In this document: piece by piece, positions 29,635-56,469 of the stretch | Numbering within the stretch: position 1 is the first letter of the stretch | Layout of the letters: each line of letters opens with the position of its first letter | Source: Polytrichum commune | Lineage: Eukaryota; Streptophyta; Polytrichopsida; Polytrichales; Polytrichaceae | Length of the DNA stretch: 64,000 nucleotides | Direction: 5' to 3' | Assembly (NCBI GenBank): GCA_950295325.1 | Contig: OX485805.1 | Coordinates: 37,871,501-37,935,500 of the forward strand | Made by a program: the position numbers and the translations under genes | Notes under the pieces: model-generated | The model's input: only the letters and a program-made list of their open reading frames with translations | Database searches by the model: none | Told to the model about the DNA's origin: nothing

Positions 29635-32600
29635 ATGGCCCTCACAATCATGCCTCCCCGAAGTAGACTAATGTCTTTCATGTATGCATGCCAGATGGAT
29701 GGGCTTACACCTGTGGTAGCACTTCTCGTGATTACTACACTGCTTGTCGATGTGGTACTCGTGGCGGATGCGCTTCCACCGGCCCTTGATGTCCACTTGA
29801 CGGAGTGGAAGACCTTACCCACTGGCGAAACAGTAAGCTGCCCAGAACGGAGACGCCGACTGCGAATGGAGGCTTGGGAGAAGAAAAGAGAAAAGGATAT
29901 TATCGATCAACACTGGAGGCAAGAAGTTGGTGGTGCAAAGTTTCATGCCACTTCTAGTGCACTGGACCTTCAAGTGCAAGCGGCCTCTGATACCCGGTCG
30001 ACCCAGCAAGAAAGGTCTCATCCTAAGGAGGTTGAACATGCTGGCAGGAGGCTTTCTTCTTCCACGGCTATGGACGATGTGTCGGTTTTACTGGCCATCA
30101 AGAAAGCCATTTTCTATGACCCTCGTAGTGTCTTGTCTAATTGGACAAACTCAAAGAATTCTGATCATTGCCGCACATGGGCAGGAGTGACATGCAACTC
30201 CAAGCGGCAGGTGGTGAGCCTCTCTCTCCCAGGCTGCCAGCTCAATGGCACTCTCAGTCCTCAAATTGGCAACCTTACTCAACTAACCTACCTCAACTTC
30301 TCTTCGAACAATCTCAGTGGGAGCATCCCTTCCGAGTTGATGAACTGCCATAACCTCTCTGTCCTGGATGTGAGTGTTAACCTTTTGAGTGGTATAGTCC
30401 CCCCACAACTCGGTAATCTCTCTCAACTCCAAGTGTTGTGGATCTCCAACAACACCTTCTCTAGTTCCATTCCTGAAGCCCTGGGCAACTCGTGTCAGAA
30501 ACTCACAAGTCTGAAAGCAGATTTTGCCAATCTGTCCGGGACGATCCCTGCAAGCCTGGGCAAGTGCCAGAACCTCATAGTTCTCTCACTTCGTTTCAAC
30601 AACTTGACGGGAAACATACCCACCACCCTTGGTAATTTGCAGCTGCTTCAACAATTATGGCTGAAAGGCAACAGCTTAACAGGATCCATCCCTGCGAGCT
30701 TAGCCAAGTGCAAGAGCATGGAGTATCTCATACTTTCTGTGAACAGTTTGAGTGGGTCTCTTCCCACAGAGTTTGGCGGGCTTGGGCAACTCCAAGTTCT
30801 TTCAGTTTGGGGCAACCAGCTCTCTGGGAAAATTCCAGCAAGTCTAGGAAGATGCCACAACATGACTCAGCTTGTGCTGGATAGCAACAACTTCACAGGT
30901 GAGAGAACCTCACGCCCCAAAATTTATTTGTTGACAAAAATGGCTTATGTTTGCTATAGACATGAATGCACAATGATCCCTCAAAGGTCACGTCACTAGC
31001 GGTGCCTTAATTATCGAATCCATCTATTAACTGTATTGTTAGACCTGGATGTGTCCTTACTGATTATCTATCTTAAAATAAATATTAATTTTCTGTATAG
31101 GTTTGAAGCGATCTTATTGATTTAGATTTGAAAGCAACTCGTCAATATGGTTGGGAAGCAATTTGTCATGCATCTTGCGCCAATTCCATGTTAGACCATA
31201 CAAATTGTACTTAGCTTTTGGATAGATACTGCTGAAACCTTAAGGAGATAACATGTACAACAAGTTTTTAGCTTCATGATCATGTCTACCACTTTGAAGT
31301 ATTTGATTTTACTCAACTCCAAGCATGCCGAACCTCTCCATACTTGTTATAATTATGAATCCATGGTGTGTGTGTATGTGTATGTCATTAGGGCCAATTC
31401 CAGTGGAGCTTGGTCAATTGAGCAATTTACAGATTCTTTCAGCCACTGATAACTATTTAGAAGGTACGAGATTATAACTTGAGCCTTCAAAGTACCTATG
31501 ATAGGATTTTTGATATAAATATATTGTATGATTTAGACACCACCAGATTACAAGCTCAAACTGGTAGACTAAATGTTCGGCCTTTGCAAGAATCACAACA
31601 TTTAGGTAGATTGATTATTGATACCAATTGCTTACTGCTGTCAACTTTGAGAGATTACCCGGTTGTTTTCTATTTGTGTTTCTGACTTGAACCCTTAAAC
31701 CCAAATTGTGCCTCCCCTCTCGGTTGAGCGGTCTAGTTATCAGAGGAAATAAAAGTCAAACACACCAAGGTTTTGGAGGTACTTTCAATTTGTGATCAAT
31801 TTGTGCACAAAACTTAGAAATCTTTCATCCACATGGATAACCCTCACAACTTCTCACAAATAATAGATATCAGTGGGAGCTTCCATGTACTACTCGAGCA
31901 GTATGAGTTTCGTGAGATTTCATTTTGATCATGAAGTCCAAAAGACACCCAACAATATGAGTGAGTTCCCCAAGCTGAACAAGGTAAGGATTGGAACAAT
32001 CTCCATTGATTTTGTGTAAGATCAAAGAGGGCATGAATAAGCGGAAGTATTAGGGCTGGTTCACATGGGGTCCCAAGTCCCAAGTCCCACATATGTTAGC
32101 AAGTTTCAACATGGAGGCAAAGTCCCAACTCAAGAAATCATTAAATATGGTTGATTGTCATTAAAGTTGAATATTGATTATTTTATGCAGGACTTGTGTT
32201 GAGAGTTTGGGTTTAGCTTTTTGCTCAACCCAACTCTCAACACAAGTCCCAAGCCTCACCTCTGAAATAGTGTTGTCATGTAGGTATCCATGTCATACTT
32301 GGGACCCTGTGAGAGGTGGTAAGTCCCAATTTCTATTCTCTCAATGGTTAAGATTGCACGGATTGACCTCAAGTGACTTGTGACTTAGTACTTGGGACCC
32401 CGAGTGATCCAAGCCTCATAGTTATTCATAAAGCAAAGCAAATAAAACCATGGGTTTAGTCCCAAACCTTGAGTTTCCGAGAATCAACACAAAGTCACCC
32501 GACTTTTCTTAATGCTTAAATTAACACACACAAAGAGTGGTGTTGGGCTATTAAAAACCAAATTTCTAGCTTGTCCTACTAGGATGAGTGGGCCAAGTTA

Positions 32601-35192
32601 GCCTTGCATAGGCCAATCTAGGATTTAAGATAGTAAGTCCACCGAATCATCATGGGTTGCATTAAATTATTATGTATAAGATGATGTAATGCAATTCAAA
32701 TGGCCATAAATGGTTTTAGCCCTCAATGAGATGTGTGGTAGAGGCTATGGGTGAGAAGAAATAAACTTCTATGGGCAATGTTCCAAGTAACTATTTTATA
32801 ATCTTGTTTATTACGGTATGCCAATGTTTAAAAATGATCAAGTTATGAAACTTATATTTTATGCCAAGTAAGGAATTGGTTATTCTAATCGACTAATGTA
32901 TGGTGGGATGCAGGGGAAATACCTATGGAACTTGGCAAATTGAATCAACTGCAAGTCTTGCTACTCAAAAACAACAATCTCACTGGTTCAATTCCACCAT
33001 CACTTGGAAATTGTTCGTCTTTATATTTTTTATTATTGGGCTACAACAATATTAGTGGAAGCGTACTGATGGAATTTGGAAAGTTGACATTGTTGCAAGA
33101 AATTGGTCTTGAATACAATTGGGCGTTGGGTGGCCCCATTCCAAGATCCATATCAAATTGTTCTCAACTTCAAATTCTATTTGCGGGTGCTTGTAATTTT
33201 TCAAGCATACCAATTGAACTTTGGAGCATGCCAAATTTGCAACAAGTGGCCTTGTTCTCCAACAGTCTACGAGGTGAGCTTCCATTGGAAGTTGGCAATT
33301 GCACTTATCTATCTTGGTTGGACCTTGGATGGAATGGAAACGAGTTGAACGGATCCATTCCGAGGACTCTTGGGAACTTGAAGCAACTATCCACCTTGAG
33401 CTTGATTCAAAATAATTTCACTGGAGAGATTCCCAAAGAGCTTGGAAGTTTACCTCAATTGCAACTATTGTGGTTGGGGAGAAATTATGGATTGAATGGA
33501 TCTATTCCTCAAGAATTTGCTAATCTATCCAATATACAAGACTTAAGGTTGGGATACACCAACTTATCAGGTTCTATACCCAAATACTTGTTTAAAAATT
33601 GTACCAATCTAGTGACTCTCATCTTGTACGAGGCCCAACTTACGGGAATCCTACCGGATGGGATAGGTGGATTGCAACATCTTCAAAGCCTATATATCCA
33701 GGGCAATATGCTAACTGGCATCATTCCAAGTGATATTGGAGATTGTTCACAACTTACAACCTTTGCAATGTCTAGAAATCAATTCACTGGTAGTATACCA
33801 ACAAGCCTTGGCAAGTTGACTAATTTAGATGCGACATTGGATTTATCATACAACAATCTCAATGGGTCCATACCTTGGGAGTTGGGCAATTTGACAAAGT
33901 TACAAACATTGCAACTTTCTTCAAATTTGTTGTCAGGTGTTATTCCCGAGACTCTAGGTATGTGTACATCTTTGAACCTCCTAGACATATCATCAAATAG
34001 TATTTTTGGTGCAATTCCTACAACATTGGGGAATTTGAACAACTTGGTATCTTTGGACTTGTCAAAGAATAACCTCAATGGTAGTGTTTTGGCAGTGTCA
34101 AGTCTTGAAGGATGTCCAAAGTTGGAAACACTTAGGTTTGGAGACAACCAATTGGTTGGACAATTGGAACTAAACTTCACCAAATTACCATCCCTCAAAT
34201 ATTTTTCAGCCTATTCCAATAGCATTACCGGACCACACCCGACATCCTTTGCTACCACCAATTCTAGCCTTGTGCTTATTGACCTTAGTAGGAACAATAT
34301 AACTGGGGTCATACCTTCTCAATCCATATTAGGGAGTCATTTGCAAAGCTTGCGTGTTTTGGAATTGGCACACAACAATCTTCATGGTCCAATACCATCA
34401 TGGATTGGAGATTTGAAGTCGCTTCAAGTGTTGGACTTATCTTACAACAACTTGGAAGGCTTGATACTATCTCATGTTGATGGCTTGGACAGTTTCAAGG
34501 GGACAAATAATTCAGTTCAAAACACAGATGGGGCTTTCACATTAGACCAAACTGTAAATCTCACAAAGGGGCAAGGGATCTTATTGACATATACCTATAT
34601 CTTGAAAACCATGACCTACTTCGACTTATCCTACAATAACCTTGTGGGTGGTATCCCCGAAGCCCTTGCACAGCTAGTGGGATTGCAGTATTTGACCTTA
34701 TCCAACAATAAGTTGGAGGGTGAAATCCCATATGATTTGGGGAAAAATCTTCTAGGATTAGAGACTTTAGATTTATCCAACAATAATCTCAATGGGACAA
34801 TTCCATCTAGCTTGGCACATCTCCAATATTTATCTTCTTTTAATGTGTCATCCAACAACCTTCAAGGTGCAATTCCAACAGGCAACCAATTTGATACCTT
34901 CAACAACGCATCATACCTTCCAGGGAATCCAGGCCTTTGTGGGAGTGTTATAAATCGATCATGCAATAAAGGCACCCCTCCAAGTCAAGGTGAATGGAAT
35001 ATATCCACACAAGGAAAATTCTTTGAAGATGAAGTGTCAGTGACCGGGTTTGAAATTGGAGTTGCAATTGGGTTTTTCTCAATGGTATTTTTGATTGCGT
35101 CTTGGAGGCCCGCAAGGAGCTTGATATTGACATCACAATCAAAGAAAATAGTGGATTCTAGATATTATGGTGCATTTGAGGAAAGATCTTAA
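29635..35192 (+). CDS. LRR receptor-like protein B (no kinase), three exons
   Basis: Tandem sister of the gene at 1612-7160, also 1204 residues, with exons 29635-30898, 31392-31463 and 32914-35192 of exactly the same lengths, splice sites and phases. Signal segment, LRRNT_2 cap, LRR series, island, C-terminal cap, membrane helix and short tail are all intact. Amino-acid differences from copy A are few and scattered, including S/F, V/L and I/F changes on LRR faces and a segment near the C-terminal LRR (TGNQFDTFNNA against TAHFDTFDNT in A), which may affect recognition. It is a presumed plasma-membrane receptor-like protein needing a kinase partner (family knowledge). No damage seen, so both genes could be active. 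Confidence 0.9.
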
Positions 35193-38651: not shown

Positions 38652-39990
38652 GGAGGACGTTAAATACCCACCCACGAACTTTTCGGGAGGGGGGGGGGGG
38701 GGGGAATATTTTGTAAGGTGCAGCCCCCGACATTTTTTCTGCACCCGACCGAAAACTGTTGCCCGCCCGCCCGATTTCGAAAAAACTATTGTACTTGCAT
38801 TTTTGAAGGCTACTTGTCCACAAATCCCATATTGAGTGCACTTCATTTTCAAGGTCTCAAATCCAATATATATGTTCACTTCCATTGAGTAAATAAGCAA
38901 TTGACTAGATTTCATTTCCAAAGTGAAACCGCCAATAAAGCATGTAATTAACTTGGAAGTCAAAAATATTACAAAATCCTCATTACCATTGAGGTTGTAA
39001 TTTTTGTCACTTACAATTGAAAGGGACTTTGTCACTCTAAAATGAAACTAAAATGTATTTTTTAAATTATTTTTAAATAAAATATAATGTATTCTAATGT
39101 ATTATATATTTTAATATATAATCTAATATCTAATCTAATCTAATATCTAATATATATTTAATACCTTCTACTATCACAAAGTTTTCATACGCATTTAAAC
39201 TAGTTAAGAAAGATTGAATGCAACTAAGTCTAATAATTTCTGATTAATCCTAATTAATCCTATTCAAGCCCAATTAAATCAGAATATATACGTACCAAAT
39301 TAATTAAGCCTAATTAATTACAAAATGTACTTACTGGAATTAGTCATGATTTAAATGGAATTAACTCCAGTAAATATAATTTATTATTAATTAGGCTTAA
39401 TTAATTTGGTAAGCATATTTTTTGATTTAATTGGACTTATATTAGGATTAATCAAAATATATTAGACTTAGTTGCATTCAATCTTACTTAACTAGTTTAA
39501 ATGCATATGAAAACTCTGTGATAGTAGAAGGTATTAACTATATTATATATTATGTTATATTAAAGAATTAAAGAATTAAAATAAATAAATTATTAATTTT
39601 AGTTTCATTTTAGAATGACAAAGTCCCTTTCAATTGTAAGTGACAAAAATTATAACCTCAATGGTAATGAGGATTTTGTAATATTTTTGACTTCCAAATT
39701 AATTACATGCTTTATTGGCAGTTTCACTTTGAAAGTGAAATCTAGTCAATTGCTTATTTACTCAATGGAAGAGAACATATATATTGGATTTGAGACCTTG
39801 AAAATGAAGTGCAATCAATATGGGATTTGTGGACAAGTAGCCTTCAAAAATGCAAGTACAATAGTTTTTTTGAAATTGGGCGGGCGGGCAGCAAATTTCG
39901 GTCGGGTGCAGAAAAAATGTCGGGGGCTGCCCCTGACAAAATATTCCCCCCCCCCCCCCAAAATTCGTGGGGGGGTATTTAACATCCTCC
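38652..39990. mobile_element. Mutator-type foldback element (MULE-MITE 2)
   Basis: Ends GGAGGACGTTAAATACCC and the complement GGAGGATGTTAAATACCC, with arms of about 500 bp or more. A 9-bp direct duplication flanks it: ATGACCTAC (38643-38651) and ATGACCCAC (39991-39999), with single-copy empty sites at about 10105 and 36613. Nine bp is the Mutator rule. The long frames at 38553-39035 (minus) and 39615-40025 (plus) are the same translation read from each arm, so I treat them as artefacts. G- and C-runs lie symmetrically near each end. Same family as 42-1173. Confidence 0.9.
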
Positions 39991-40334: not shown

Positions 40335-40503
40335 TTTAGATTTTTGGATACGATAAAACCTAGGGGAATACGCAAGGAAGACCTAAAAGGTGATATTTTG
40401 AGTCTAGATCTCTCATATAAGCTTTATGAGGACAATTTTAGGTTCATTTCAAGTTATTTAGGATTTTTAATGGACAATTCATACTTCAAGTATGTAGGTT
40501 TAG
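40335..40503 (+). pseudogene. ORF fragment interrupted by the giant element
   Basis: A protein-like frame (DLSYKLYEDNFRFISSYLGF, then MDNSYFKYVGL) runs straight into the target duplication and, after removing the 16-kb element, continues in frame on the other side from 56460 for 14 codons to a TAG at 56511. The giant element thus probably landed in an open frame. Family not recognised; a TAG lies just upstream, so the fragment was already incomplete or spliced. Confidence 0.35.
40494..40503. repeat. target-site duplication, left
   Basis: GTAGGTTTAG, repeated exactly at 56460-56469. Confidence 0.88.
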
Positions 40504-40563
40504 CAGGAATGCTATCTTGTGAGCGGTGAGCGATGAGCAGTGAGCCGTGAGCAGAAAATTTGA
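40504..40563. repeat. left terminal inverted repeat with heptamer array
   Basis: CAGGAATGCTATCTTGTGAG, then a run of heptamers (GTGAGCG, ATGAGCA, GTGAGCC, GTGAGCA) and AGAAAATTTGAA. The inverse is at 56400-56459, where more of the heptamers read GCGAGCG. Such subterminal arrays are typical transposase-binding sites (family knowledge). Confidence 0.85.
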
Positions 40564-41234
40564 ATTTTTATTCTTCAAATTTTTCAATGAAATGTATGAT
40601 ATAGACCCTATGACCGTGGAGAATTTATGGTTTCATTCTATAAAATCTGCATATTATTTAACAAAAATTAATCAAGGTCCTATTCCCGCGGAGGGATTTT
40701 TGCAGTTCACACAAATGATTTTTTTTGGAAAGGCCTTGTAAACAAAAAAAACACCTTTGGTACATTAGAATCTCCCAACATGCATATCAACATGGTTGAA
40801 TTTTTTTCAAATGGCCCAATTTAAATAGTCATCATCTAGACATTAAAGTGGTTAATAAAGTACGCATCCATTTAAGTACGCATCATGGTTAAGTGCGCAA
40901 TTTTTTTTAACAAAAATCAAGGTTTGTATTTTATTGTTTGAATATGTCATGCAGAGTTGTTTGTCGTGAATGCATGAGTTTTTTTATGCTTGACATTAAA
41001 TGTCAGTTTGTTGACGTTTTGCTAAAACGTCTCAAACGATCATCACAATTCATCATACATATGTCTAGCTTCCGTTTGAACATCGGAGCAAAGCAATTGG
41101 TCGTCGATGTCGAGGACAATGCTATGTAGAGCTTCAAAGCCTTTAAAGTTCTTAAAATCCAAGGTTCATAAAAATAAAAATAAATCATATATTAGAAGGA
41201 AATACACGTATTTTTATGTGAAGTGCTTCAATGA
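40564..41234. other. left noncoding part of giant element
   Basis: AT-rich sequence between the left terminal repeat and the end of the leftward gene; its 3' UTR should lie here. The plus frame at 40547-40741 begins in the terminal repeat and is not supported further. Confidence 0.4.
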
Positions 41235-44200
41235 TCACGAAGACAATTCAACATCATTAGAAGCCTTAATCCATCCTTCCTCGCTATCACTGTCACTAGA
41301 TGATCCATCAACTTCTGTAGAAATATGGAAATATTTTTCTACGGGACGGCAACTACTATGTTTTTCTGGAGAAGGGTCTGGTGATGAAGTAGCTGCATAC
41401 GCTTCTGCAACAATCTCAGCATGAAAAGGAAGCTGAAGAGGTCTAATAGGGCTTCTAATCTTACTGATATAGTGTGAGAGAATGCTTCCATCATACTTCA
41501 TCATAGAGGACTTCAACGCTTCCTTGCGCCATCTATAAACAAGTAAAAATCAACCATTTAAAAATGTTGGTAAGAAAAATTGAGGAAATGTTTAAAAATT
41601 TGAAGATAGATAGTGTAGACTTAATTACTTACAAGCTCGCTTGGCAACAGTCTTCTTCTCTGGCTCATCTGCATTCTCCAAAGGGCGTTTCTTCTTTGGA
41701 GAAGACCTTGTAATTTTGACTGACTGAATTTCTTCAGCTTGGGGAAGAAGAGAAACCAATACCTCTTTGTATAAGATACTGTCATATTCAAATGCAATAA
41801 TATGACGATGAAGACTCTTTGATGCCCGAACAGAAGCACTTGAAATAAACAATACCATTTAGTACTTGGTATAAATTAATAACCAAACATATCAAAAAAA
41901 AGTATAGGGGGAAAATAATACCTGTGGAGGCTGTGAGGTCCATGACAATGTCATCTTCAACCGTGCAGAGATCAATAAGAGCCATGAGTAATTAGAAAAC
42001 TTCTCCCGTGCACCTCTAAATGGCATTCTATTCTCCGACTGAACAGTTAGAGAATCAACATCAATGAGGTTTGTGAGATGTCCATCTGATGACAACTTGA
42101 TGCCATGTGCAAGAAGTTCAGGACGGTCACAAAACACAAAATTGGACATTGGAACCTCTTCATCCGGATTTTCCTTTCTAACAAAGCATTTCACCATGAA
42201 ACACTTATGCGTACGGGATGGATGATCCGGGACAGTCAAAGGAAGACCGTTAATTGCAAACCACTTGGATTCCTCCTAAAAATTTGCCCAATCCGCCCAA
42301 GATAAAAATTCATTGGATATAAACTTTGAATTAGGATAAAATACAATGAGGGCACCATCATCTTGAAGAAACTGCATGGCAAACTCAAAATGCCTCTTGA
42401 TCCATATGGATTCCACTTTTCCATCTATATCATCTGGTTTAGTCTTTGGATGACGGTTCCAAGGTGGAATTTCACCAGCAATACCAAGTCCAGGAACAGG
42501 TAAATCCTCCGGAACATCAGGGATAACAAGATCAACTACATTGTCAGCTTCACAACCCGCATAGCTTCGAATTTTTTTACCTTGATGATCTTTAATCCAT
42601 GCTTTCATACGCCTCCAAATCTTTGGCTCATCACTCTCAGTAACATCATCAAACAAGTCAAAAATATCTGAAGGACTATTATTGATGATCTCTATCCCAC
42701 TCTCTACATCATCCAACTTCGAGCATGGGATAGTATACACCGTTTGTGACGGAAAATGGGCAACGGAAAGAGGCACCTGAGAAACCAAAGGAGTAATAGT
42801 AGCGGGCATGCTACTGCCTGAAGGAGAAATACCCACATAAGAAAGAAGTTTTTCTGGCCCTTCCTTTAACACAAGCTTCGCCAACTCTTTGTTCCGTGCC
42901 GCAACCTCCTTCTTCAACTTTATTTCTTCCTCCTTGCCTTTCTTCTTTTTTTCTTTCTCCTTCAAACGAGTTTCAACCTTTGCTTTCTTGTCAGCCAATT
43001 TCTTCCTTTGTTTGTCAGATATAGAGTTGTCATCACCCACCTCCGATGCATCTTCTTCAATATGCACCAAATTCTCAGCCTCTAATTGTTGCATCATATT
43101 GTCACAACTAGCCTTCAAGGCTCTCTCCTCTCCAGGACATCTTTCATTTTCCTTTAACTCAAGATACCAAGGACATTGAAGAAGATGAGGTCTTTCAAAA
43201 TATTTTTTCTGATAGTTTGAAAAAATACATTCACTACTAGAAACATCCACCCACTTGTTAAAACGTTGAGGAATGTTCTTCCTATCAATGGCCCCCTTAA
43301 TCACCAACTCCCTCCAGAAATATCTCAAGATAGCTCTCTTCATAGCATTCTCAGTACCAGCTTGGACAAGAAATAACTCCTTCGTATAAGTGCCATCATT
43401 TGAAAAAAATTCTTTGAAAGCCTTCTTCCACAAAGTAATAGAATGGGACTCAATCCAAGTTCCAATATCGTCCACTGGGTTGGGCAAGTCCTCGGTCTTC
43501 AATATGATAGCATCTTCCTCCATAATTTCTCAAATCGATTTACTGCCTCTTCCTCTAACTGCAACAATGTACAATTATTCAGCAAAACAAATTCAATTCA
43601 ATCCATCAAATTCTCAAATTTTAGATATAACTCAAACTTCATAAAAAATATAAATATACGGTTCAAAATAACATACCCCAGTCCAGAAGGCAGCTTTATC
43701 TATCCAAATCCGAAGAACTGAATCAGAAGCGGGTGAGGGAGGAAAATTGTATTCTTTACGACTCTCCTTACTCATATTCCACCACCTTAACCATCTCTCT
43801 TTGTGCTTCGAAGAAACCTTTGTTGTTGCAATAAGTTGTAGTTTTTCTGAAGTCATCTCAGGCTTCACTTGAAAGATATCAAAGTGACAAATAATCTACT
43901 TTCAAAAGTACAATTAGATTAGTAAAAATTTGCACTACAAAAAAAGACATAATATAGAAAATATTTAATGACATATATGCAAAATTTACGACATTAATTG
44001 TTTAGGTTTAACCCTCTCAAACCCATAATCAAGCCAACCACACAAAATAACATCACAAAAACCAGTGAAGGCCTCCTAATTTAACTAATCACTTACCTCA
44101 GCCACATAGAACTTCTTCTTAAACAAAGCACACAATAACCATGTAAAGGGCAGTAAGAGGATTATTATTTCATAAATATTTATTATAAACGTCCCATCTA

Positions 44201-45534
44201 ACTTCTCTCGGATCCGAGACCATGCAAACCAAGTTGAATAAAATTACAAAAAACAAAAAAATCTATGATAGATGGTGGAGCACATACCTCTCGTATGAAA
44301 CCCTCTCCATTTGCTGGATTGGCAATTGCGAGGTACCGAGATAGGTCTGTAGAGAGGAAGGCCTTCTTTGCCTCAACAGCCTTAGTTGCGGCGGCCTGTA
44401 GTTCAAACGGACTTCCAATTCTATCTTCGCCTGTACCGGTGACAAGACTGTCTTTGTACAACCTGATTGCCTCTTCTTGTGCTGCGGAGATTTCTTGCTA
44501 CAAACAAAGATAACAAATTCAGACAAGTTCTCATTTAAACTTGTAGGTGACAAATTGAAAGTAGACAAGTAATTTACCTCGTATAAACAATTGATGAATG
44601 CATCGTGAGTAAGATGATACCACTTCCGTCTCTTCCCACCGTGACGATTCCACTCAAGAATACTAGCTTGAAGGTCTTCATCACTGACAAGTCCTTTAAG
44701 TTGATCAAAGTCTAGCAATCCCAATTGCTGGACACACTTGACATTGTGCGTGAAGTGTTGGGCGACGTGATCAACCTGGTTTTTCATGGATTGCATACAC
44801 CTCAACTAAGAATACAAATGATACACGATGCATTTACTAACATGAGTGTTTAAATAATAAATAACAAGAAATTCGAAATTCAAATAACATATTTTGAAGA
44901 ACTTACTTGTTCCAATCTGTCATCACATGCAATAGCATGTTACAATTTTCTGAAGATACGTTGATCAAAACAGAACGTACGGGAACATGAAAAAATGCAT
45001 CATTTTTATGGAGGGCACTAATGACATCCATCCATGCAATATGACGGTGATTTCCGTCCCATACGTAGAAAAACTGATTAGAATACTTTCCTAATGCTGG
45101 ATTTTTTGCCAATCGAGCTTCAAACTCCAAATCCTCCTTGCGCCACAAATCCGACCATGAAGCCCAATGAGTCTCCGTGACGGTTGCTTCTTCCATTCTA
45201 AAACTCCTTAAGGATAGATAGAAGCAGGCTGATGCCCGCCTATACCCACGAGAGAACTTTGCCTTCAACTTCTGAATGTCAGTCTTCAAGGGCTCTCTAA
45301 CATTCTTCATAGGAATCATCCTGCACAAGGGCACGTCAAGTTCACAGTTTGGAGATTCAAGTGCACTTTGAATTGCATCATGTGAATTGCCTCTCACGGC
45401 TCTCCATAATTTCTCCTCAATCTCTGCTAAACCACCATCTTCAACCTCCATGTTGACCTTTGGGCTCTCGCTTTCACCCTCTGCAAATTTGTGAGTCATC
45501 TGCGCATATGGATAAGAGAATTGAGAAATAAGAG

Positions 45535-46250
45535 CATTTTCAAAAAAATAAAATAAAATAATACATGTCCACCTTTGTTTCGGATCCGAGACAACAAATT
45601 TAACGCATAAAATTGGAGTGAATCCCTTAACGAATTGAGAAATAAAGCATTTTCGAAAGAAAAAAAACTACAACCAAGCAATGAGTGCAAGAGCATTTTC
45701 AAAAAAAATAAAATGAAATAGTAGCCGTCCACCCTTGTCTTAGATCCGAGACAACCCATTTAATGCACAATCCTAGAGGAAAACTGACGGGTTTCTCTGA
45801 TGTACATGAAGCCATGCCCGCTTAGAACCCAAGGCTATGAGAACAAGCGCATTTTCAAAATAAACAAAACAAATAGTACCCGTCCACCCTTGTTTCGGAT
45901 CCGAGACAACAAATTTAACGCAGAAAATTGGATTGAGTCCCTTAACGAATTGAGAAATAAAGCATTTTCAAAAACAAAACTACAACCAAGCAATGAGGAC
46001 AAGAGCATTTTCAAAAAAAATAAAATGATATAGTACCCGTCCACCCTTGTTTCGGATCCGAGACAACAAATTTAACGCACAAAATTGGAGTGAGTCCCTT
46101 AACGAATTGAGAAATAAAGCATTTTCGAAAAAAAAAACTACAACCAAGCAATGAGGACAAGAGCATTTTCAAAAAACAAAAAAATGAAAAAGTACCCGTC
46201 CACCCTTGTCTCGGATCCGAGACAACCCATTTAATGCACAATCCTAGAGG
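45535..46250. repeat. tandem array, five ~157-bp units with palindrome
   Basis: Each unit contains GAGCATTTTCAAAA, CCGTCCACCCTTGT, one palindrome, and (in most) TTAACGAATTGAGAAATAAAG and ACTACAACCAAGCAATGAG. Palindrome spacing is 160, 155, 157 and 159 bp. A CCTAGAGGAAAACTGA..GGGTTTCTCTGATG segment ends the second and fifth units. It lies in an intron of the leftward gene just upstream of the ParB exon. Confidence 0.9.
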
Positions 46251-47421
46251 AAAACTGATGGGTTTCTCTGATGTACATGAAACTCTGCTACTTGACAATT
46301 ATCTTTCAACACTCTGGTATCATTTTCTGCTGAAGCTGGAGAGCGATCTTTGACATGTCAAATGACCTAAGCCAAAAGAATCAACTCTTCAGGAAATGAT
46401 TTTTCATAATATGATTTAGAATTGACCTATATCTGATTTAGAATAACCTCATTTTTTGCTTGATTTGGTACCTTGAATGTTTGGGGGTAAAACATTTACC
46501 AGAATCTAATCTCAAGCAAGCCATGCGTTTAAGCACCAGGATGACAATTATATCTCTCTCTAAGGTTGAGATTAATCTCCAACAATTTCATTTGACCACC
46601 AAACTTCATTTTAATGGTGAATTTAAGAAACTAATTCAAGGCATTTGAGTTGAGCATACAAGTGGAGAAGAAGACAATACCCCGACAATGCAGTGAACTT
46701 ATCAACAACTTGTGCACGCTAATTGCAAGTTTTCACAAAACATGCAATGTTTTTTTCCAATTCAAAACACAATGTGAAGTTGCAATTTGACCCCACATAG
46801 AGACACCAAACCCTAAGCTCCATCCCCTTCAACTCATACGGCCTGCCATGTGGAAACTATCTGTAGCACATTTCAAATGCATAAGCACTCTTTCTGGAGC
46901 TGCCACTCAGGCTTTCATAATGATTATTAGCATTTTTGAGACTGCAGTAAGCTCTAAGAACTCGCATAAATTTCGTTAGTGTCACCAATGGCAATGGCGC
47001 AATCTCCGCCTTCAAGTTTTGCAGTGGCTAGACTAGAGGAATTTCCTGCGGTTTCAAGATTCACATAGTTTGGAGTGACACATTAAGTTCTTTTTGACCG
47101 CATGTACTTAATCCATATACAACTAAATTCCTCTCTTGAAAGATTGCCAGGGAATTGATTCACATAAATAGAAATGGACATTACAAGTAAATTATGAGAC
47201 TCTGGAGATGTTCTTGTACTTGGATGAGGCAGCTTGTCACTACACTGAGCTATAACTATTTAAAGTTGTATATATCAAAGAGCTAACCGTGAAGCTCAGA
47301 ACAGATTGAAGAAAATTTCGGTATTTTATCCGATTCTAACCTATACGAGTTCATCAAGGCAATAGATATTGAAGTTACCACCAAAATTCAAGGCAACTGG
47401 TACACCTTCAAAAACACAGTA
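46251..47421. other. intronic/noncoding part of giant element
   Basis: Within the intron between the 47989 and 45480 exons of the leftward gene. No ORF, RNA or repeat recognised. Confidence 0.45.
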
Positions 47422-47662
47422 CACTATTCATGGTTTTTAGTGTCACTTACTATTTAGAGTTACACAGTGCTGTAAAAAAATTACTGTTAGCGTAAGTTTT
47501 TACCAAGTTAAAAATGTTTTTTGAAATTTTAAAAAAAACCATTTTCTTAAATGTCCAACCAACCAATTCGACCTTTGTCAGTGAAAGAATGAAGATGTGA
47601 AAGAATATTTGTAGCCTTGCGTAACTCCAAATAGTAACTGATAGCAAATACCACAAATGGTG
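47422..47662. mobile_element. CACTA-ended MITE nested in giant element
   Basis: CACTATTCATGGTTTTTAGTG at left and AAATACCACAAATGGTG at right, inverted; same subfamily as 15310-15528 (shared TTTTTACCAAGTTAA and CAACCAATTCGAC-type blocks). Left flank TA, right flank CA. It lies in an intron and post-dates the element's assembly. Confidence 0.7.
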
Positions 47663-47989
47663 CAGCTGGGTAACATCTATTCCAACGAGCACAGGGAACT
47701 TCTGGAAATTTATCGCCACATGTAGAAACATGTCGTAATAAATTGCCAAAGCTTCAGCACAATGACGGAGGGATTCTAAACATATAAGTAGTGAACTAAG
47801 AATTTAGCTCTGTGATAGTTGGAACATTAAATTGTCGATCAGCGGAGTACTGCTCAGTGCAATAGAATTTCAAGATGCAATTTCCTCTTACCTGGATAAT
47901 TAAGAGCTGTCAATGCCTCATGACACTCAGCTTCACCCTCAGCATCTAATACATCCTCAGCCTCTTCTTCACCGGAACAATGAGAATAC

Positions 47990-49440
47990 CTGTTGGGACC
48001 CGAAAGCCTTGTCTCGGATCCGAGACAAGGCTTCACTGAGGCGCAAGGAACCTGACAGGTGGGATCCCCCGGTAACAAAGGGGAGCACCATTGACCGACC
48101 CTGATCTTCTGTGAAAGGTTTGAGTGTGAGCATACCTCTCTTAACCCGGCCGAAAGCCTTGTCTACCTCCCCCTCGAAATAAAGGCAAGCAACAACACAA
48201 GTGCACTGAGATTAAACGGCGATTCAGAATACAACAGGAGCACACAATCCATTGATTCGATTGCAGTGAACAAGCAAGTGAGCGCTGAGTGCCAGCGAAG
48301 CTCTTTGGAAACTATCAAACTACAATCTCTCACTTAGGAAACTATCCCTCGAAACTCTTTGGAAAGTATCAAACTACACCCGGCATTTACAACAAGTCGC
48401 CCGCTCGCACTGGACATTCAGATTAGCGTCGTTCTAGGAGAAAATAGAACCCGCTTTGCACATACACAATCCTCCAAACCTTGCTCGTGAAGACTGACTA
48501 ACTCTCGAGAAGGTGAAAAATTTATCAAATAACTAAAGGTACTAACGATGCCTTCAAGTCCCAGTAGCATGACTAGGGTGATTTCGTGATAGACAGCCTG
48601 ACTTCGAAAGACTGCAACGAACACATACAATCATGACGGCGAGCAAGAACCTACCTTCGAAATTCAGAGGAGCAATAACACATACCCTGAGATTAAAAGG
48701 CGATTCAGAATGCGACAGGAGCACACAATCACTTGATTCAATTGCAGTAGACTAGCAAGCTGTAAGAGCTGAGTGCCGGTGAAGCTCTTTAAAAACTATC
48801 AAACGAACTCAGCATTTACAATTAGTCGCCCGGTCGCACGAGACATTTAGGGGAGCAGGCTTCCGACGAAAATACAATCCACTTTGCACCCACGACAAAG
48901 CCCCAAACCTCGATCACGAAGACTGCCCGATTCTCGGGAAGATGAAATAAAATGGCAACTTGGGATGAAATATGGCCATGGATGATTGAAATTTAGTTGT
49001 CTCGGATCCGAGACAACTAAGCCGTGAGACTGAGCCGTGAAAATCGACGATCAGACCTCAGATCAGGAAAGACTACCCGCTGAGTTTAAGCATATCACTA
49101 AGCGGAGGAGAAGAAACTAACCTGGATTTACCGCGTATTGTCCAGGTGCCAGCCCTTGATCATCCTCGCTCAAATTCACGGTGGCTGAAATCGACCGACC
49201 CTGATCTTCTGTGAAAGGTTTGAGTGTGAGCATACCTGTTGGGACCCGAAAGCCTTGTCTCGGATCCGAGACAAGGCTTCATTGAGGCGCAAGGAACCTG
49301 ACAGGTGGGATCCCCCGGTAACAAAGGGGAGCACCATCGACCGACCCTGATCTTCTGTGAAAGGTTTGAGTGTGAGCATACCTCTCTTAACCCAAAAGCC
49401 TTGTCTACCTCCCCCTCGAAATAAAGCCTTGTCTACCCGC
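47990..49440 (+). rRNA. 25S rRNA fragments interleaved with palindromes
   Basis: Short 25S pieces appear in shuffled order: TGTTGGGACCCGAAAG (47991, 49239), GACCGACCCTGATCTTCTGTG to GTGAGCATACC (about 48092-48138, 49194-49236, 49338-49382), and the 25S 5' end ACTACCCGCTGAGTTTAAGC (49070). A ~150-bp module with palindrome plus 25S piece is present twice (47990-48140 and 49238-49388). Another repeat pair, CGGCGATTCAGAATACAACAGG-like, is at about 48215 and 48700. These are relics, not functional rRNA genes. Confidence 0.8.
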
Positions 49441-50270
49441 TGAGTTTAAGCATATCACTAAGCGGAGGAGAAGAAACTAACCTGGATTTCCCTAGTAACG
49501 GCGAGCGAACCGGAAAGTGCCCAGCTTGAAAATCGAAGTTCAGACCTCAGATCAGGAAAGACTACCCGCTGAGTTTAAGCATATCACTAAGCGGAGGAGA
49601 AGAAACTAACCTGGATTTCCCTAGTAACGGCGAGCGAACCGGAAAGTGCCCAGCTTGAAAATCGAGGGGCTTCGCCCCTCAAATTGTAGTCTGGAGAAGC
49701 GTCCTCTGCAACGGACGTTCCCTGGAACGGGACGTCGGAGAGGGTGAGAACCCCGTCGAGTTCGGACCCTGTTGCTCCACGAGGCGCTGTCTGCGAGTCG
49801 GGCTGTTTGGGAATGCAGCCCTAAGTGGGAGGTAAATTCCTTCCAAGGCTAAATACAGGCAAGAGACCGATAGCGAACAAGTACCGCGATGGAAAGGAGG
49901 GCGCGGGGGTCGTGGAGCAGCTTTGGGCGTGAGCCCAAGTGAAACGGCCTCCGGTGCAGATCTTGGTGGTAGTAGCAAATTTTCAAATGAGAACTTTGAA
50001 GACTGAAGTGGAGAAATTAAAGGTTCCATGTGAACAGCAATTGGACATGGGTTAGTCGATCCTAAGAGATGGGGCAATCATGTGTCAATGGCGCAATGCG
50101 CCCCGTGTATCGAAAGGGGATCGGGTCAATATTCCCGAACCGGGCCTCGGCAGCGGACGGCGACGTGGCCGAATCCAGAGACGCCGGCGAGGGCCCCGGG
50201 AAGAGTTCTCTTTTCTTTTTAACAGCCCGCCCACCCTAGAATCGGATCACCCGGAGATAGACACAGATCG
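49436..50270 (+). rRNA. 25S rRNA 5' region, truncated and rearranged
   Basis: The 25S start is present twice more (49433-49530 and 49560-49660: CCGCTGAGTTTAAGCATATC, GTAACGGCGAGCGAACCGG). From 49560 the match continues through GGAGAAGCG and AGACCGATAGCGAACAAGTA to about 49888, then jumps to a later 25S region (GGTGCAGATCTTGGTGGTAG at 49954, CATGGGTTAGTCGATCCTAA at 50046, AGAGTTCTCTTTTCTTTTTAACAGCC near 50200). It lies in the large intron between exons 50946 and 47989 of the leftward gene. Numerous substitutions show a non-functional copy. Confidence 0.88.
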
Positions 50271-50945
50271 TGTTACAGGAATGGGCAGAGCAGCTGGCTA
50301 ATGAGGGAAAGGCCAAAGCATATGCCAATTCAATGGCGGAGAAGCAAACTCCCTCTCCGGACACGGGAAGGAGAAGAGACGAGGGTGGGGGGGGGGGGTA
50401 AAAGGTTTCTGGATGGATGGATGGATGACCGGGACCAGGTGGGGGAGAGGCTAAAACTCACCACACTGGTCTCACTCACACAACCTCGAAATCGACACTC
50501 TCCCCCTCAACTCACCACACATTTCCCACAAATGACGCAGTTTAGGGTTTCGGGTGAAGAAGCAGACTTGTGATTTGTGAGCAAGTATGCAATGGAATGA
50601 GTCTACAAAAAAAATAATGAACAATCCGTGTAATGTAATTGTGAAGATGCTTCTCTATAGCAGTCGAGATTGTGAAGATGCTTCTCTAGGATCCCACCCG
50701 ACCTCGAAGCTGCACACTGAAACTCTCGCCAGGTTGGATGGTTCAATATCAGATTCCTCGCCTGAGATTTTCAAAAGAATCAGGAAAAAATTGCCCTTTC
50801 ACCCTTGTCTCGGATCCGAGACAAGGCTTCATGTAGGTTGTTCTAGAGCCGGACCGCACACTATGAGGGATGTGTAAACCCGGCGAAGCCTCCTCTCCTC
50901 CAGAAATAATTACATAAGGCATTCAAAACTAATTACTAAACCTAC
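50271..50945. other. noncoding intron segment
   Basis: GC-rich to AT-rich transition with a G-run (about 50389-50398), ATGG repeats (50412-50427) and one perfect palindrome at 50807. Directly followed by the 50946-51032 exon of the leftward gene. Confidence 0.45.
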
Positions 50946-51441
50946 CTCTTTGGCAAGGGGAGATTGAGCCTCAATCGTTGGCTGATCTCCGGGGCATGCG
51001 TCCCCTAGGTCGCCAACTTCACAAGCAATACCCTGCGAATCATTCAACGAATGCTCAAAACCCTAATGATAAAAACCCTAGTGATCACTGTCAGAGTCAC
51101 AAAAATGCAGGTTATGCAAAAAGCTCCGAGTTTTCTCAGCCATAGTTTAAGTCTATGAATACACAGCTTGGTCAATACGCGAACCCTCAACAGACTACCC
51201 ATAAACCATTGAGAATATTTACCTTGCAAATATCCCCTAATTCCTTAAAGTTCAAATGGTTTGTATCATTTGAGCTGCTATCAACCTCAACAATTTGATT
51301 AAGAGCCATTTTTTCCCGTCGTCTCCGTTGAGCCTTCAGTTGCTTTGGCAGTGTAAAATGGCTACTTCGTCTTCTTCCTCTACCTCTACATGATCTAAGA
51401 GCTCTTGGAACTACTGCGCTTGGGACCTCGCCCTCCTTCAT

Positions 51442-52210
51442 GTGTCTGATTCACAATCACACCACAACTAGTCACTACTAGAAACGAAATAGAAGCGAAG
51501 GATAATGTACATTGTCATTTCAATAGAATGACTCATTATTCTCTTCAAATTGCTTTAGGGTCTTCCCATCAGATACTTCACTAATGGTTAATGATTAATA
51601 TTTTCAGATCATGGCTCATGATTATATTTAGATAAACATTCTCATTGTTATTATTAGAGTACTTCTACACGATGTTCTCAATACAGGTCTTCCAAAACAA
51701 ACAAGTATAGCAATGGATAATTATAAAGCATCTAATTAGCTCATAGGACAAAGTACGATCGTCACGCAATTTTAAGTATCTAGGATCTAACAGATTTAAG
51801 TGACTATGAATAGTGGTCTTAGCTTGCATGCCTTAGAATAGAGTCATGAACTCCATTTCAGTGCTATTAAAGGACATCTATAATTTTGGCATAAATACGG
51901 CTGGATGTTATTATTGTATCACCTAACACCTTTATGCTTGGTGGTCTCAGCCGTCAATGGAATTCTTAATTTCAATGCTTTATAAAATATGCTTTGCCTC
52001 TTTCAACACCTACTTTACAGATCATTGTCATATACAACAAATATTCTATTGAGCTTCCACCCACTACCTATAGTGTGACCACAAGGTCTACAATCCCATC
52101 CTCGGTGAGATATATAATGAGCATATCAATTGAAACCTTACATCTTCTTCTAAGCATTTTCTTATTCAAAGCATGATTGTACGTCTTCCATCTTCTATAG
52201 CACACTTAGA
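51442..52210. promoter_or_regulatory. divergent promoter region of giant element
   Basis: The 769 bp separating the ATG of the leftward gene (51441) from that of the rightward transposase (52211). AT-rich, no ORF of note, no palindrome copy. Its role is inferred from gene arrangement; I cannot define a TATA box. Confidence 0.5.
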
Positions 52211-55200
52211 ATGGCTTCTCTTAGATCCCACGCTGGAGGTGTTCCATTTGTGATGTCTTTGGGCCCAGACGACAAGGTAGTTGTCCATGAACAACTTCTT
52301 AGTCTTAGGTTTGGTTTCAGATCTGGTACAATTTATGTGGAAGAGGAAGTGTTTGATGCTAATGGAGAGTTATGTGAGTCTATATTTCAGGTCAAGGATA
52401 GTACTGATGAGGGCTATGTCTGGAATTTAACAAGTGGTACTTACAAAGTGTACGGTTTATCAGATGTTCAAATGTCCGGGTCTACTATAATCATGACACC
52501 TCCTACTTCCACATCAACCGTTCATGTACCTGGTCTAGCTACTGTCAAAGTCGAACCGACTGAATCAAATGTACAGATATTGAGTGATTCAGACGATGAC
52601 AATGTTAATGAGATCAAGCTAAGTGACATTTCAAGTAATCCATTTCAGTCACGTGGCTTGCTTGGATCCGCACGTCCATTTCAGCACCATAGTCGCTCAA
52701 GTGTGTCACCGTCACTCTCTTCAAGACATCCACCTATTCATCCTAATTGTAGGAAGAGTCGTAGTATCTTATTTGCTATTAGAAAGACTGCCTCTAGAAA
52801 GGGTTCTCGTTCAGAGCTTTCACGAATAGATTTTGACAGTATTGATCACGAACAAGTCAAGTATTTACCTCCAACTTATGATGGAGAGAAGATATTTGAG
52901 TTGCCTCCTCTTCCTGAAGGAATTCCAACTCAATTTGGAGGTAGTATGGATGGAATGAGCAAACAATACGATGGCCATACATGGTGCAAAACCATCACAA
53001 CTAATATCAAGAATGAATTTGGCCTTACCTATCGTAGGTCCTCTTGTACTGGACACCTTGAGTGCCCAAACCAGAGTTGTAATTACATCTGCAGGAACAA
53101 TGGCAAGGTAAACTGCACAGAGTGGTCTGGAGTGGCTTTGATACCATTTTCAATTGGAGGGGGTCCAAGTGAGAAATCCACATTAGCGTGTAAGGTTTGT
53201 CAAACACCTCCCATTTGCTTAGCATTATGTGATGCTAGAATCTACCATGTGTCGTCCAATGACAATGATGTCACTCGTGCTGCAATCCACTTAGGATGTC
53301 ACAATCATCCAGTATCTCAAGGAACATGTCAAGATTCTATGGACATTATGTATGATTGTATTGCCAAGGAAGTCCAGAAGACTCCTAATGCAAAGAACTC
53401 TGCTATCATCATGGCGGCAAGTAAGAACTATCTTGCGGATGCCTTGATTCGTCCAACTCCAGGCGGAAGCAACCTTCAAGGAGCATCTATGGATGTTGTT
53501 ATGGACCAGTTTGAGACGCTTACTTCACCAAACTTACGCAACTTCGTATCTGGAACAAAGAGATTCTTCCGTCAGGGGAGAGGAGTTACGGATAGCATTC
53601 TCGAACTCAAAGACTACTCCAACTTTGTTTTCATCCACCAAAATCAATTTCCAGGTCAAAACAAGGGAAAGGTATTTGTTTTCAAGATGTCCGTGGACCG
53701 TCCAGGGAGTGGTGTGGACTTGGTGAAGCGCATGCAACCCGGCGGTGACCTTCAAGATTGTTGGGTCATGTTCGACCATGTGAAGCATGTTTCTAGTTGG
53801 ACTACTATGGCATGCCATGTCTACGACAGCAAGTACTGTAAGGTAATGACCATTGCCCTTTGTGATATGCAATCTGAGGATGCAGAAGCCCAAGAGTTGT
53901 TTTGGCTTCATCTGAACGAAGTTATGCGGAAGAATGGATTAGAAACTACAAACTTCAAGGGCTTCATGGCTGATAGTGCTGGAGCCAATTGGCACGCCGT
54001 TCGCAAAGTATATGGCAACGGAGATCCCAACAAATGCATGGAGAACCGGGAGCGGACATGTTTGTTTCACTGGACAAAGTGCCTTCAAAGAGCCACCTCT
54101 AAAAACATTCTACCGGGTTTTCAAGACCAGCACATCGCTATGTGCAAAGTCTGGAAGGATGCTAAGTCTCAAGAAGAAGCACAAGCGCAGTATAACGTCA
54201 TTCGGGGTTGGTGGCTTTCATCTGGTGCTACAACAGAGGATGGAAGGCGTTCTCTAAATGACTAGATAGCATTCTGGCACTTTCGCTACAGACAGTGGGG
54301 CGGCTCTATGCAACTTGTAAGTTTGTGCATCACTTCACATGTTTTAATACACTAAACCTTCACTGTAATTCATATCGTTAGGCCATTACTCATCTTTGCA
54401 TGTGGTTTCTCCAGGACCTCACTCTTGACGAGAGGGCGGACATGCCTTCTTGCAATCTAGCGGAAACTGTCCACAACAGATGGCTGCAACAGTCCGGAAA
54501 CACAATGACATGTTTGTACGAGGCTACGGTGGACGATCTCTTTCGTGCTTTCATGCAGATTACAAGCTACCGATTTTGGTTGAAAGGGGGGAAGGGAGGA
54601 AAGGGACCAGACAAATCTGAACTTCGTCTACGCCATGCACAACGCTTTGGAGACCCTAAGCTAATAGCTGAGGCAGTTAACTCTTACCCTGGGGCTGCAG
54701 ATCTATTGACCAAGAAAGGAGGCCTTGAGGGCGCAGAGATTTTTGGGTCCACAAAACGAAAGTTAGATTTGCCACCAGGATCAAGTCATGATTCGCATCG
54801 GTCGGATACAGTGAATTACTCTATTCCACGTGATGGTACCAGGTTCACTAAAGCACGCATTGAGGAGGCTCTATCTAAACCTGACTCGGGCGTCCAACAC
54901 ACTACCTCCGTTTTGGAAACCAACTGCGATCCTTCAAAGTGGCATATTGCCCGTCTTTCAAGCAAATCCACACGGAAATGCCAGGCCATGTGTGCTCATA
55001 CTAATGAGAAATGTGATACCAGAGTAGGACGAGGTCCACATGGCACCCCTGCCCCTACGTATGTTGGCGATAAGAAGGGGTACAAAACTCATCGAACTAT
55101 TTCTACAAAATTTTGGTTTTGTGCAGATGACATTAATCGATGTGTGAAGGGGACCAAGAAATCCTTTGTGGTAGGTTGGCCATCTGTTCCTATGACCTGG

Positions 55201-55797
55201 CCTGTGAAGAAGGGTACAAACTTAACTATGAAGAAAATCTTGGCTCTAGAAGAGGCAGGTTTCCAACTCCAACAACATGGTGCCTTCTCTCCGCGCCGTC
55301 AATTCCAGAATGCAGCAGACATGCCACTTCCAAGATCACATTTCCCAACTCCTGTGAATCCAGACTCACATCCTACAACTCGAGACGGTTTTGCCATCAG
55401 AAGAAGCTCAGATGCACCCACTCCTGAGCATCGCAATAAGTGGAGCAGTGCAGGACTTATGAACAATTGTCATGTGACAAGCGTTACGTCCATACCATAC
55501 CCTGCATATGGGTGTGTTATATCCATGGATAGTGGTAATGGAAAGGTGTATTGTATTACCATCACCGATTTACCGGGATGTACCTGCCCCGATTTCATGA
55601 AGATGACATCAGAGACCTTAGGAAAGAAGGGTCAATGGAGGTATTGCAAGCATGTGTACTACATCTTTCGCTATTTCTGCAAGATGGATTACAAAGTGGA
55701 CACTTTCATGCACGCACCCAGCTTTAGCTACAATGAGGTTATGCATATTTTAGAACTTGCTAAAGTTGTTGAACCACTTATGTACGTAGTTCCTTGA
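52211..55797 (+). CDS. MULE-like transposase, two exons, one in-frame stop
   Basis: Exons 52211-54316 and 54382-55797, phase 0, GTAAGT donor and GTTAG acceptor; 1173 codons. The N-terminal 200 residues are acidic and serine-rich. A zinc-binding region (about 270-366) has spaced cysteines and ends CHNHP, like WRKY/GCM1/FAR1 fingers. The RNase-H-like core has MFDHVKH (D about 522) and MADSAGANWH (D about 588) followed by CLFHWTKCLQ, a Mutator-type C..H pattern. A SWIM finger CTCPDF...WRYCKH lies near 1101-1125. A TAG at 54263, 17 codons before the intron (LND*IAFWHF), would truncate it; TGG or CAG to TAG explains this. Role: excision and insertion of the element. Whether this copy works depends on read-through or an alternative donor. 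Confidence 0.82.
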
Positions 55798-56399
55798 CTT
55801 CCTTCATGCTTCAAGGTGCTTGGTAGTGAACTTTTTAGTTCGTGAATCCCATCTTCAATAGCGGAATTGATTTGAATTGCCTTTGATTTGTATTTGAATC
55901 TGCACATTATTAAAAGATCATATTTATGAAACCATGAATTTTCCAATCTTGGATACAAAAGGATTGCCATGAAAATGACTATTTTTCTCTATTTTTTATT
56001 CTCAATTGTGACTATAGAATATTCTTGTCTCGGATCCGAAAGGACATGGACAAAAAAAATTCATTTATTTTATTATCTGTTTTCTTTTTTTTGAGTTTTC
56101 GTGGATAATACTTAAAATTTTAATTTACATTCTTATTCCCTTATTTTATGTTCCCTATTATTTTGAAAGTTTTTTTTCTAATTTTTTTTTTCGTTTTCTT
56201 CCGTTTCTTTTTATGGATGGTTTTTTCAAAAGTTTATAATTTCTTCCACTCCACGGTTATAGGCACCATCCACAGTTAAACGTACCATCTACTTTTAGTC
56301 ATATTTGTAAAGAAACTATACGAAGAGTCCTACTTGGTGTAAGAATTAAGTCAAATATTCTAATTTTTTTTTTTAAATCAAAATTTTTTTTCAAAAATT
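55798..56399. other. right noncoding part of giant element
   Basis: Transposase 3' UTR region, with a half-damaged palindrome at 56027 and T-rich tracts leading into the right terminal repeat. Confidence 0.5.
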
Positions 56400-56459
56400 T
56401 CAAATTTTCTGCTCGCCGCTCGCCGCTCACTGCTCACCGCTCACAAGATAGCGTCGCTG
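56400..56459. repeat. right terminal inverted repeat
   Basis: Reverse complement reads CAGCGACGCTATCTTGTGAG followed by heptamers GCGGTGA/GCAGTGA/GCGGCGA and AGAAAATTTGAA, matching the left end. Confidence 0.85.
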
Positions 56460-56469
56460 GTAGGTTTAG
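56460..56469. repeat. target-site duplication, right
   Basis: GTAGGTTTAG, identical to 40494-40503. Confidence 0.88.

Follow-up and report, generated by a model that had tools for sequence, protein, structure and literature searches.

What does a moss transposon do with a spliced gene whose product resembles, in outline, the ParB-methylase fusions of phage type? The question is raised by a 64,000-nucleotide stretch of the Polytrichum commune genome (the window hereafter; contig OX485805.1 of assembly GCA_950295325.1, positions 37,871,501 to 37,935,500, forward strand), in which one DNA transposon of about 16 kb, lying between duplicated flanks, carries such a gene (Table 1). A sequence-only reading of the locus had described a leftward gene for a GNHR-containing ParB-like domain, a charged coil and a permuted methyltransferase, and had suggested prokaryotic acquisition and self-marking of element DNA. 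The gene is real and no artefact: the GNHR exon, the charged coil, the motif-IV-like stretch and then DLTASTG and FEYD are all found in minus-strand exons, and the element that bears it has inverted ends and the duplicated flank TAGGTTTAG. It is proposed here, tentatively, that the product is the element's own recognition protein, which would bind palindromes peculiar to its element family and act against silencing. These palindromes are a feature that the sequence-only reading had missed.

By sequence comparison, the C-terminal half has the permuted, Rossmann-type fold of beta-class DNA methyltransferases, as had been claimed. Alignment of the spliced exons of six relatives gives the motif order IV, X, I, II of beta-class enzymes. 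A profile of these spliced rows, partly typed by hand with slips, matches CcrM with E = 8.1e-9 over profile positions 21-240 and DpnA with 1.1e-8, and from the same rows PF01555 (N6_N4_Mtase) matches six of six, the best at 6.6e-7 and the first above the curated cut-off. Rows rebuilt from the DNA by script gave 98.75% (score 119) in hhalign against the methyltransferase half of phage-type ParB-methylases, with a maximum score of 21 over 50 column shuffles. Unspliced single exons matched methyltransferase profiles weakly or not at all, in our view because the key motifs lie on either side of an intron. The transposon proteins thus share with CcrM and PF01555 the motif order, the S-adenosylmethionine (SAM) motifs and the alignment over those profile positions. 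Motif I is retained in the six rows as DLTASTG, DLTCSTG, DCTAATG, DINAGVG, DVNAGVG and DCFASTG, its first G being S or A in some rows and retained in others, and the motif II region RH.(2)A.E.D is partly invariant across all six. Loss of the SAM-binding motif, the outcome that the sequence-only reading had named as speaking against it, did not occur; the SAM motifs are conserved in related families, with SAM binding itself predicted.

The catalytic motif differs. Beta-class enzymes carry (D/N/S)PP(Y/F/W) at this place, and CcrM reads DPPYNL. The unmodified open reading frames (ORFs) of the six relatives read DLPENL, DIPENL, DVPEDL, DQPEGL, QFPDGF and DIPDGL, so that D-x-P-[E/D] or QFPD replaces DPPY; neither PP nor an aromatic residue occurs at the tetrad in any of the six aligned sequences, and an acid takes the place of the aromatic residue in all. 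The absence of DPPY seen earlier in the window copy therefore extends to all six. Between family D (see below) and its near relative in locus L030, the methyltransferase part has a nonsynonymous rate (dN) of 0.021, a synonymous rate (dS) of 0.140 and dN/dS of 0.15, and from the low dN in this one pair the altered domain is judged to be kept. A working methyltransferase that labels element DNA as self by setting N6-methyladenine (6mA) or N4-methylcytosine (4mC) in the palindromes would agree with the beta-class fold, the SAM motifs and this one-pair signal of purifying selection; in the available text of PMC12477816, 4mC or 6mA is the product that the authors predict for an Ectocarpus protein of similar description. 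Against it stands the loss of DPPY in six of six (DLPE, DIPE, DVPE, DQPE, QFPD and DIPD), and we regard it as unlikely, classical 6mA or 4mC activity being doubtful because the catalytic tetrad is lost. In the reading that we prefer, the C-terminal fold would act as a SAM-sensing or otherwise non-canonical domain and not as an ordinary 6mA or 4mC enzyme, as we expect from its conserved SAM site and altered tetrad.

The name ParB-like for the N-terminal half is a lead only. All 11 aligned ParB-like exons keep the box DGNH unchanged. A PF02195 search of the genome found only three places, all bacterial-type and on contigs C12 and C23, and left the transposon gene unmatched; Pfam returned no ParB match for any of the 11 aligned exons or for eight further proteins (five of these trimmed cores), and no result on single exons. 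With hhalign, 10 of the 11 rows (L026 was excluded for a frame break) compared with 18 phage sequences gave 0.4%, or 0.8% after insert removal, and 2 of 100 shuffles were equally good. The best profile matches of the exon are weak, namely DUF5531 (0.035), T7 Gp13 (0.041) and DUF1015 (0.051). A profile search of PDB with the exon gave no result, and a PDB search with a single-sequence AlphaFold2 model was uninformative, the model being very poor (predicted local distance difference test score 36.5, predicted template modelling score 0.29). The ParB homology put forward by the sequence-only reading is thus not shown by any of these tests, and is unsupported in the profile and profile-profile comparisons. 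A true ParB-type clamp, spreading from parS-like palindromes to cluster or partition element copies, could explain the DGNHR box, the palindromic sites and the strand-helix order of that very poor model, which is compatible with ParB/Srx; with neither a ParB profile match nor profile-profile support, we consider it very improbable.

The gene is neither rare nor free of constraint. In genome-wide searches, which covered the 408 Mb assembly, the ParB-like exon has at least 155 matches, a lower bound since 149 of 1096 candidates were scored. Within families, dN/dS of this exon is 0.52 in A (54 of 55 pairs usable among 11 loci, L001 being the window copy and L007 and L023 the same copy), 0.24 in B (28 pairs) and 0.35 in C (three of six pairs usable, pairs with L018 being removed by the length or dS filter), from which we conclude that the gene is under purifying selection. 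A family 'E', set up from L030, was dropped: the 5' half of that locus is unrelated sequence, whereas the methyltransferase that it encodes has 96% identity to that of D, so L030 (L030:1-4285) is treated as a truncated D-type copy in which unrelated coding sequence replaces the 5' half.

When the loci were scanned for inverted symmetry, each of families A to D proved to have its own perfect or near-perfect palindromes of 18-30 bp: TTGTCTCGGATCCGAGACAA in A, CCCTGTGCGTTAACGCACAGGG (B1) and TTTGGGTCGNNCGACCCAAA (B2) in B, TGTCTCGGGACCGAGACA (C18) and GGTTTCGGGACCGAAACC (C14) in C, and ACTGTCGGATCCGACAGA/T in D. The centre CGNNNNCG is common to A, B1, C18, C14 and D. The window array of five family-A palindromes consists of 20 bp sites with at most two mismatches to the consensus, and several palindromes lie in tandem arrays; spacing is irregular in A, in C18 and for some of D. 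Their positions are intronic or in non-coding flanking DNA of the elements: over nine loci, at up to two mismatches, none of 90 touches a mapped exon, against 22.2 expected from the coding fraction. Self-marking of element DNA, as the sequence-only reading had suggested, thereby gains support of a different kind, from sites that are specific to families.

This specificity was examined in 30 sequence sets from which overlapping loci were excluded. At up to one mismatch the palindromes are confined to loci of their own family or sub-family, the sole cross-family match being one B2 site in the truncated copy L030, and the 48 kb of the window outside the element hold no palindrome of the set. Since the patterns were read from these loci, only the absences elsewhere and the genome-wide results count as a test. 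Genome-wide, there are 79 A sites, 444 B1 sites, 27 D sites (perfect 18-mer) and 205 + 253 C18 sites by strand (20-mer), and reversed-pattern controls for all four gave 0. The 50 listed of the 79 exact A sites fall into 11 clusters, ten of which adjoin a family-A gene (at least 92% identity) and one a 61% relative, every one of the 50 sites being 5' of its gene. Clusters within 10 kb of a gene match number 20 of 22 for D (null mean 0.27), 9 of 11 listed for B (null mean 0.12) and 6 of 14 for C18 (null mean 0.18), the null maximum over 2000 draws being 3. This comparison used all 27 D sites, 50 listed of 444 B sites and 42 chosen C18 sites (mainly run ends) of 100 listed, with 147 ParB-like gene positions from the 155 matches and 94 of 104 from a second gene-match list; the positions left out were meant to be split pieces of one copy. 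A count of CTCGGATCCGAG (3285; reversed control 9) was not used for A because it covers both the A (79) and E (2137) types.

It may be asked whether such sites need a protein reader at all. As passive parts of tandem repeats they could have been spread by unequal exchange, and the tandem arrays would fit this, as would the palindrome AGGCCTCGGATCCGAGGCCT, associated with L030, whose 2137 sites, where listed, fall mainly into satellite-like arrays that repeat at intervals of about 96 and 127 bp (for example at G000:C1:2252876-2257762) and show no accompanying gene. A different palindrome in each family, often around the same CGNNNNCG centre, and the irregular spacing are hard to reconcile with passive spread, which we therefore hold to be distinctly improbable. 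Separately, an identical palindrome trio occurs in two gene families, at L022:2588-4246 and L025:1215-1808, with steps of 475 and 95 bp. The recurrence with the same spacing suggests a nested element in its own right, probably with palindromes of its own, and the trio was therefore excluded from the family C count.

A precedent for such an arrangement is VANC of the Arabidopsis VANDAL elements. According to the available text of Hosaka and colleagues (PMC5735166), the short motifs to which VANC binds are tandemly repeated within introns and upstream regions, vary from family to family and guide the loss of DNA methylation. Shared with the moss elements, as far as the accessible portions of PMC5735166 and PMC10398659 describe it, is a transposon-encoded protein together with family-specific non-coding motif arrays that evolve with it; family-specific arrays in the non-coding DNA of the encoding element are indeed found here, except in L022 and L029. 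Unlike the moss protein, VANC is not mentioned in those portions as having a methyltransferase or ParB-like domain. The likeness is one of arrangement, the proteins being apparently unrelated and the moss system known from sequence alone. Because family-specific sites and a diverging, selected protein recall VANC and VANDAL, we propose self-recognition and protection from silencing. The N-terminal module, possibly ParB-like, and other variable parts would bind the palindromes of the protein's own element family, which are arrayed in introns and non-coding flanks and have diverged from family to family; coverage of this non-coding DNA would keep the family from being silenced, as VANC does for VANDAL. 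We infer that this protein, rather than the transposase, is the reader, and that its effect would be anti-silencing.

The transposase is a serious rival for the role. The palindromes could be transposase or operator sites, read by the transposase or by a repressor of the element, with the ParB-like/methyltransferase protein doing something else. Transposases too diverge between families (about 48% identity in L027); the transposase-like and ParB-like genes of families A and F run divergently, and the 50 listed exact family-A sites all lie 5' of the ParB-like exon. However, the inverted termini of the window element hold no palindrome, family C has many between the exons of the ParB-like/methyltransferase gene, and some ten sites per locus would exceed the need of an operator. 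On balance we think this rival somewhat unlikely.

Several observations weigh against recognition by the element's own ParB-like/methyltransferase protein. Divergence of the gene is paralleled in the transposase, which could itself read the palindromes. Both family C palindromes have an imperfect centre, and in L025 the perfect 18-mer is departed from, by at least one edge letter, in 9 of the 10 D-type sites. L022 and L029 lack any palindrome tested, and L026 has only a variant read from itself. No listed gene match lies within 10 kb of 2 of 22 D, 2 of 11 B and 8 of 14 C18 clusters, perhaps because the gene lists are incomplete or because some copies carry no gene. Nor does the available text of PMC5735166 call the short VANC motifs palindromes (word count 0). 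Finally, binding of the palindromes and an effect on methylation or expression are predictions by analogy.

Proteins of this kind are already known from algal transposons, according to the available text of PMC12477816. Sola1-1_Ec32 of Ectocarpus is described there as carrying, opposite in strand to its transposase, a gene for a ParB-like and methyltransferase protein; the text cites cases from green and red algae and suggests self-binding and epigenetic self-modification. Common to that report and ours are a ParB-like part and an N4C/N6A-type methyltransferase in one protein, borne by a giant DNA transposon in opposite orientation to the transposase. What sets the moss genome apart from the text available for Ectocarpus is that it holds several families, a changed catalytic motif and palindromes specific to each family that has them; the string 'palindrom' does not occur in that text. 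The likeness rests on the published description, so homology is not claimed. Among the literature titles and starts of abstracts listed, which covered few subscription papers, none joins ParB-methylase transposon proteins with palindromes or moss.

With phage-type fusions (L031, L033, L034 and others) the transposon protein shares the proposed domain order and the beta-class methyltransferase (hhalign, above). However, L031 passes the PF02195 cut-off and the three aligned fusions have DPPY, neither of which is true of the transposon protein, and no profile links the N-terminal parts. L031:302-1630 is itself a ParB-methylase fusion of bacterial or phage type in which DPPY is present, and it lies on the 61 kb contig C12 of the assembly, probably as contamination. 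The ParB family also includes VirB, for which we know of no methyltransferase part. VirB, an anti-silencing regulator that needs CTP (cytidine triphosphate) according to the available text of PMC10653881, is a precedent for a ParB-family protein acting against silencing and, unlike the transposon protein, is bacterial. A published phage-type ParB-methylase is Bce_0392 (available text of PMC5512222). Recent acquisition from a prokaryote, as had been suggested, is unsupported, because pattern-led scans with ParB-like or methyltransferase profiles, which reach only relatives keeping short conserved stretches, found none in viral contigs or prokaryote genomes, and because similar proteins are already reported from algal transposons.

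The window copy of the gene is broken by an in-frame TAG at 42276-42278 and by a frame break ahead of the DLTASTG exon. L023 is open at the TAG position, yet has the same frame break; L024 is open at the frame-break position, yet has one other stop in that exon. The search for intact paralogues that the sequence-only reading had called for thus found no wholly intact family-A gene among the copies examined, and did find the exon of family D (L025) that corresponds to the large exon open over 416 codons. A putative 5' exon at 51187-51450 had no match among the loci compared, most of which end short of it.

As to the element, the target duplication TAGGTTTAG stands at 40495-40503 and 56461-56469 and measures 9 bp, or 10 bp counting a shared G; among 20000 random pairs of 30-base stretches, 86 had a word of at least 9 in common. 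A 9-10 bp target duplication with terminal inverted repeats is a criterion for Mutator-like elements (MULEs), and both are present in the window copy, the one copy concerned. The duplication fits such elements, to which the transposon may belong. The two transposase-like ORFs lie on the strand opposite the leftward gene and are not among the matches to PF10551, the MULE transposase domain, listed in this genome (150 reported).

Table 1. Mapped features of the transposon and its leftward gene, numbered from the first nucleotide of the window.
Feature	Position	Strand	Remark
Whole transposon	40504-56460		Inverted termini and 9-bp duplication
Left inverted terminal repeat arm	40501-40569	+	84% complementary over 69 nt
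Right inverted terminal repeat arm	56394-56462	-	Pairs with 40501-40569
C-terminal tail exon	41235-41549	-	95% identical in L024
Exon with motif II (HIIAFEYD)	41625-41841	-	FEYD here
Motif I (DLTASTG)	about 41926-41991	-	Window copy out of frame with preceding part; in frame in L024
Continuation of large exon	41958-42275	-	Same frame beyond TAG; L023 open across this point
Exon with charged coil and motif-IV-like methyltransferase half	42276-43529	-	Window copy ends in in-frame TAG
Exon e4	43681-43872	-	36-56% identity in other families; present in most others read
Short palindrome TCTCGGATCCGAGA	44206-44219		Intron, just beyond e3; also in L003, L004, L005, L008, L009
Exon e3	44290-44497	-	Weak matches in L014, L022, L029
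Exon e2	44580-44790	-	95.7% identical in L023
Exon with ParB-like (DGNHR) domain	44906-45451	-	DGNH kept in all 11 aligned exons
Array of five family-A palindromes	45575-46225		Starts 45575, 45735, 45890, 46047, 46206
Palindrome AAGCCTTGTCTCGGATCCGAGACAAGGCTT	48004-48033
Palindrome TTAGTTGTCTCGGATCCGAGACAACTAA	48993-49020
Palindrome AAGCCTTGTCTCGGATCCGAGACAAGGCTT	49250-49279
Palindrome CCTTGTCTCGGATCCGAGACAAGG	50803-50826
Transposase-like ORF, first part	52154-54265	+	ORF 48-49% identical in L027; Pfam: no match
Transposase-like ORF, second part	54382-55797	+	CxC...CxH stretch, SWIM-looking by eye; Pfam: no match

Other features of the window stand apart from the gene. A fragment of eukaryotic large-subunit ribosomal RNA (rRNA; RF02543, 390 bits) lies inside the transposon at 49565-50549, preceded by shorter related rRNA pieces from 49073, and looks as if captured. 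Outside the element, 1477-7160 and 29500-35192 contain near-identical ORF sets about 28 kb apart, leucine-rich-repeat receptor-like by eye, and 38691-39959 holds an inverted repeat whose arms, each of 374 nt, are 95% complementary.

ParB-methylase-like transposon proteins had been proposed to bind or mark their own DNA (available text of PMC12477816), with no candidate target sites that we found in the literature; the palindromes supply concrete candidate targets, in several independent protein-site pairs within one genome. Taken together, a SAM-binding, non-classical reader or effector of bacterial-type fold and palindromes with a CpG-bearing centre may, as we tentatively read them, form a transposon addressing system, of which at least four mutually exclusive protein-site pairs would have diversified together in one genome. 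If this is true, self-recognition by a coevolving protein and motif would have arisen with a second protein chemistry besides that of VANC, and the moss elements would hold new DNA-binding modules with specificity for long sites.

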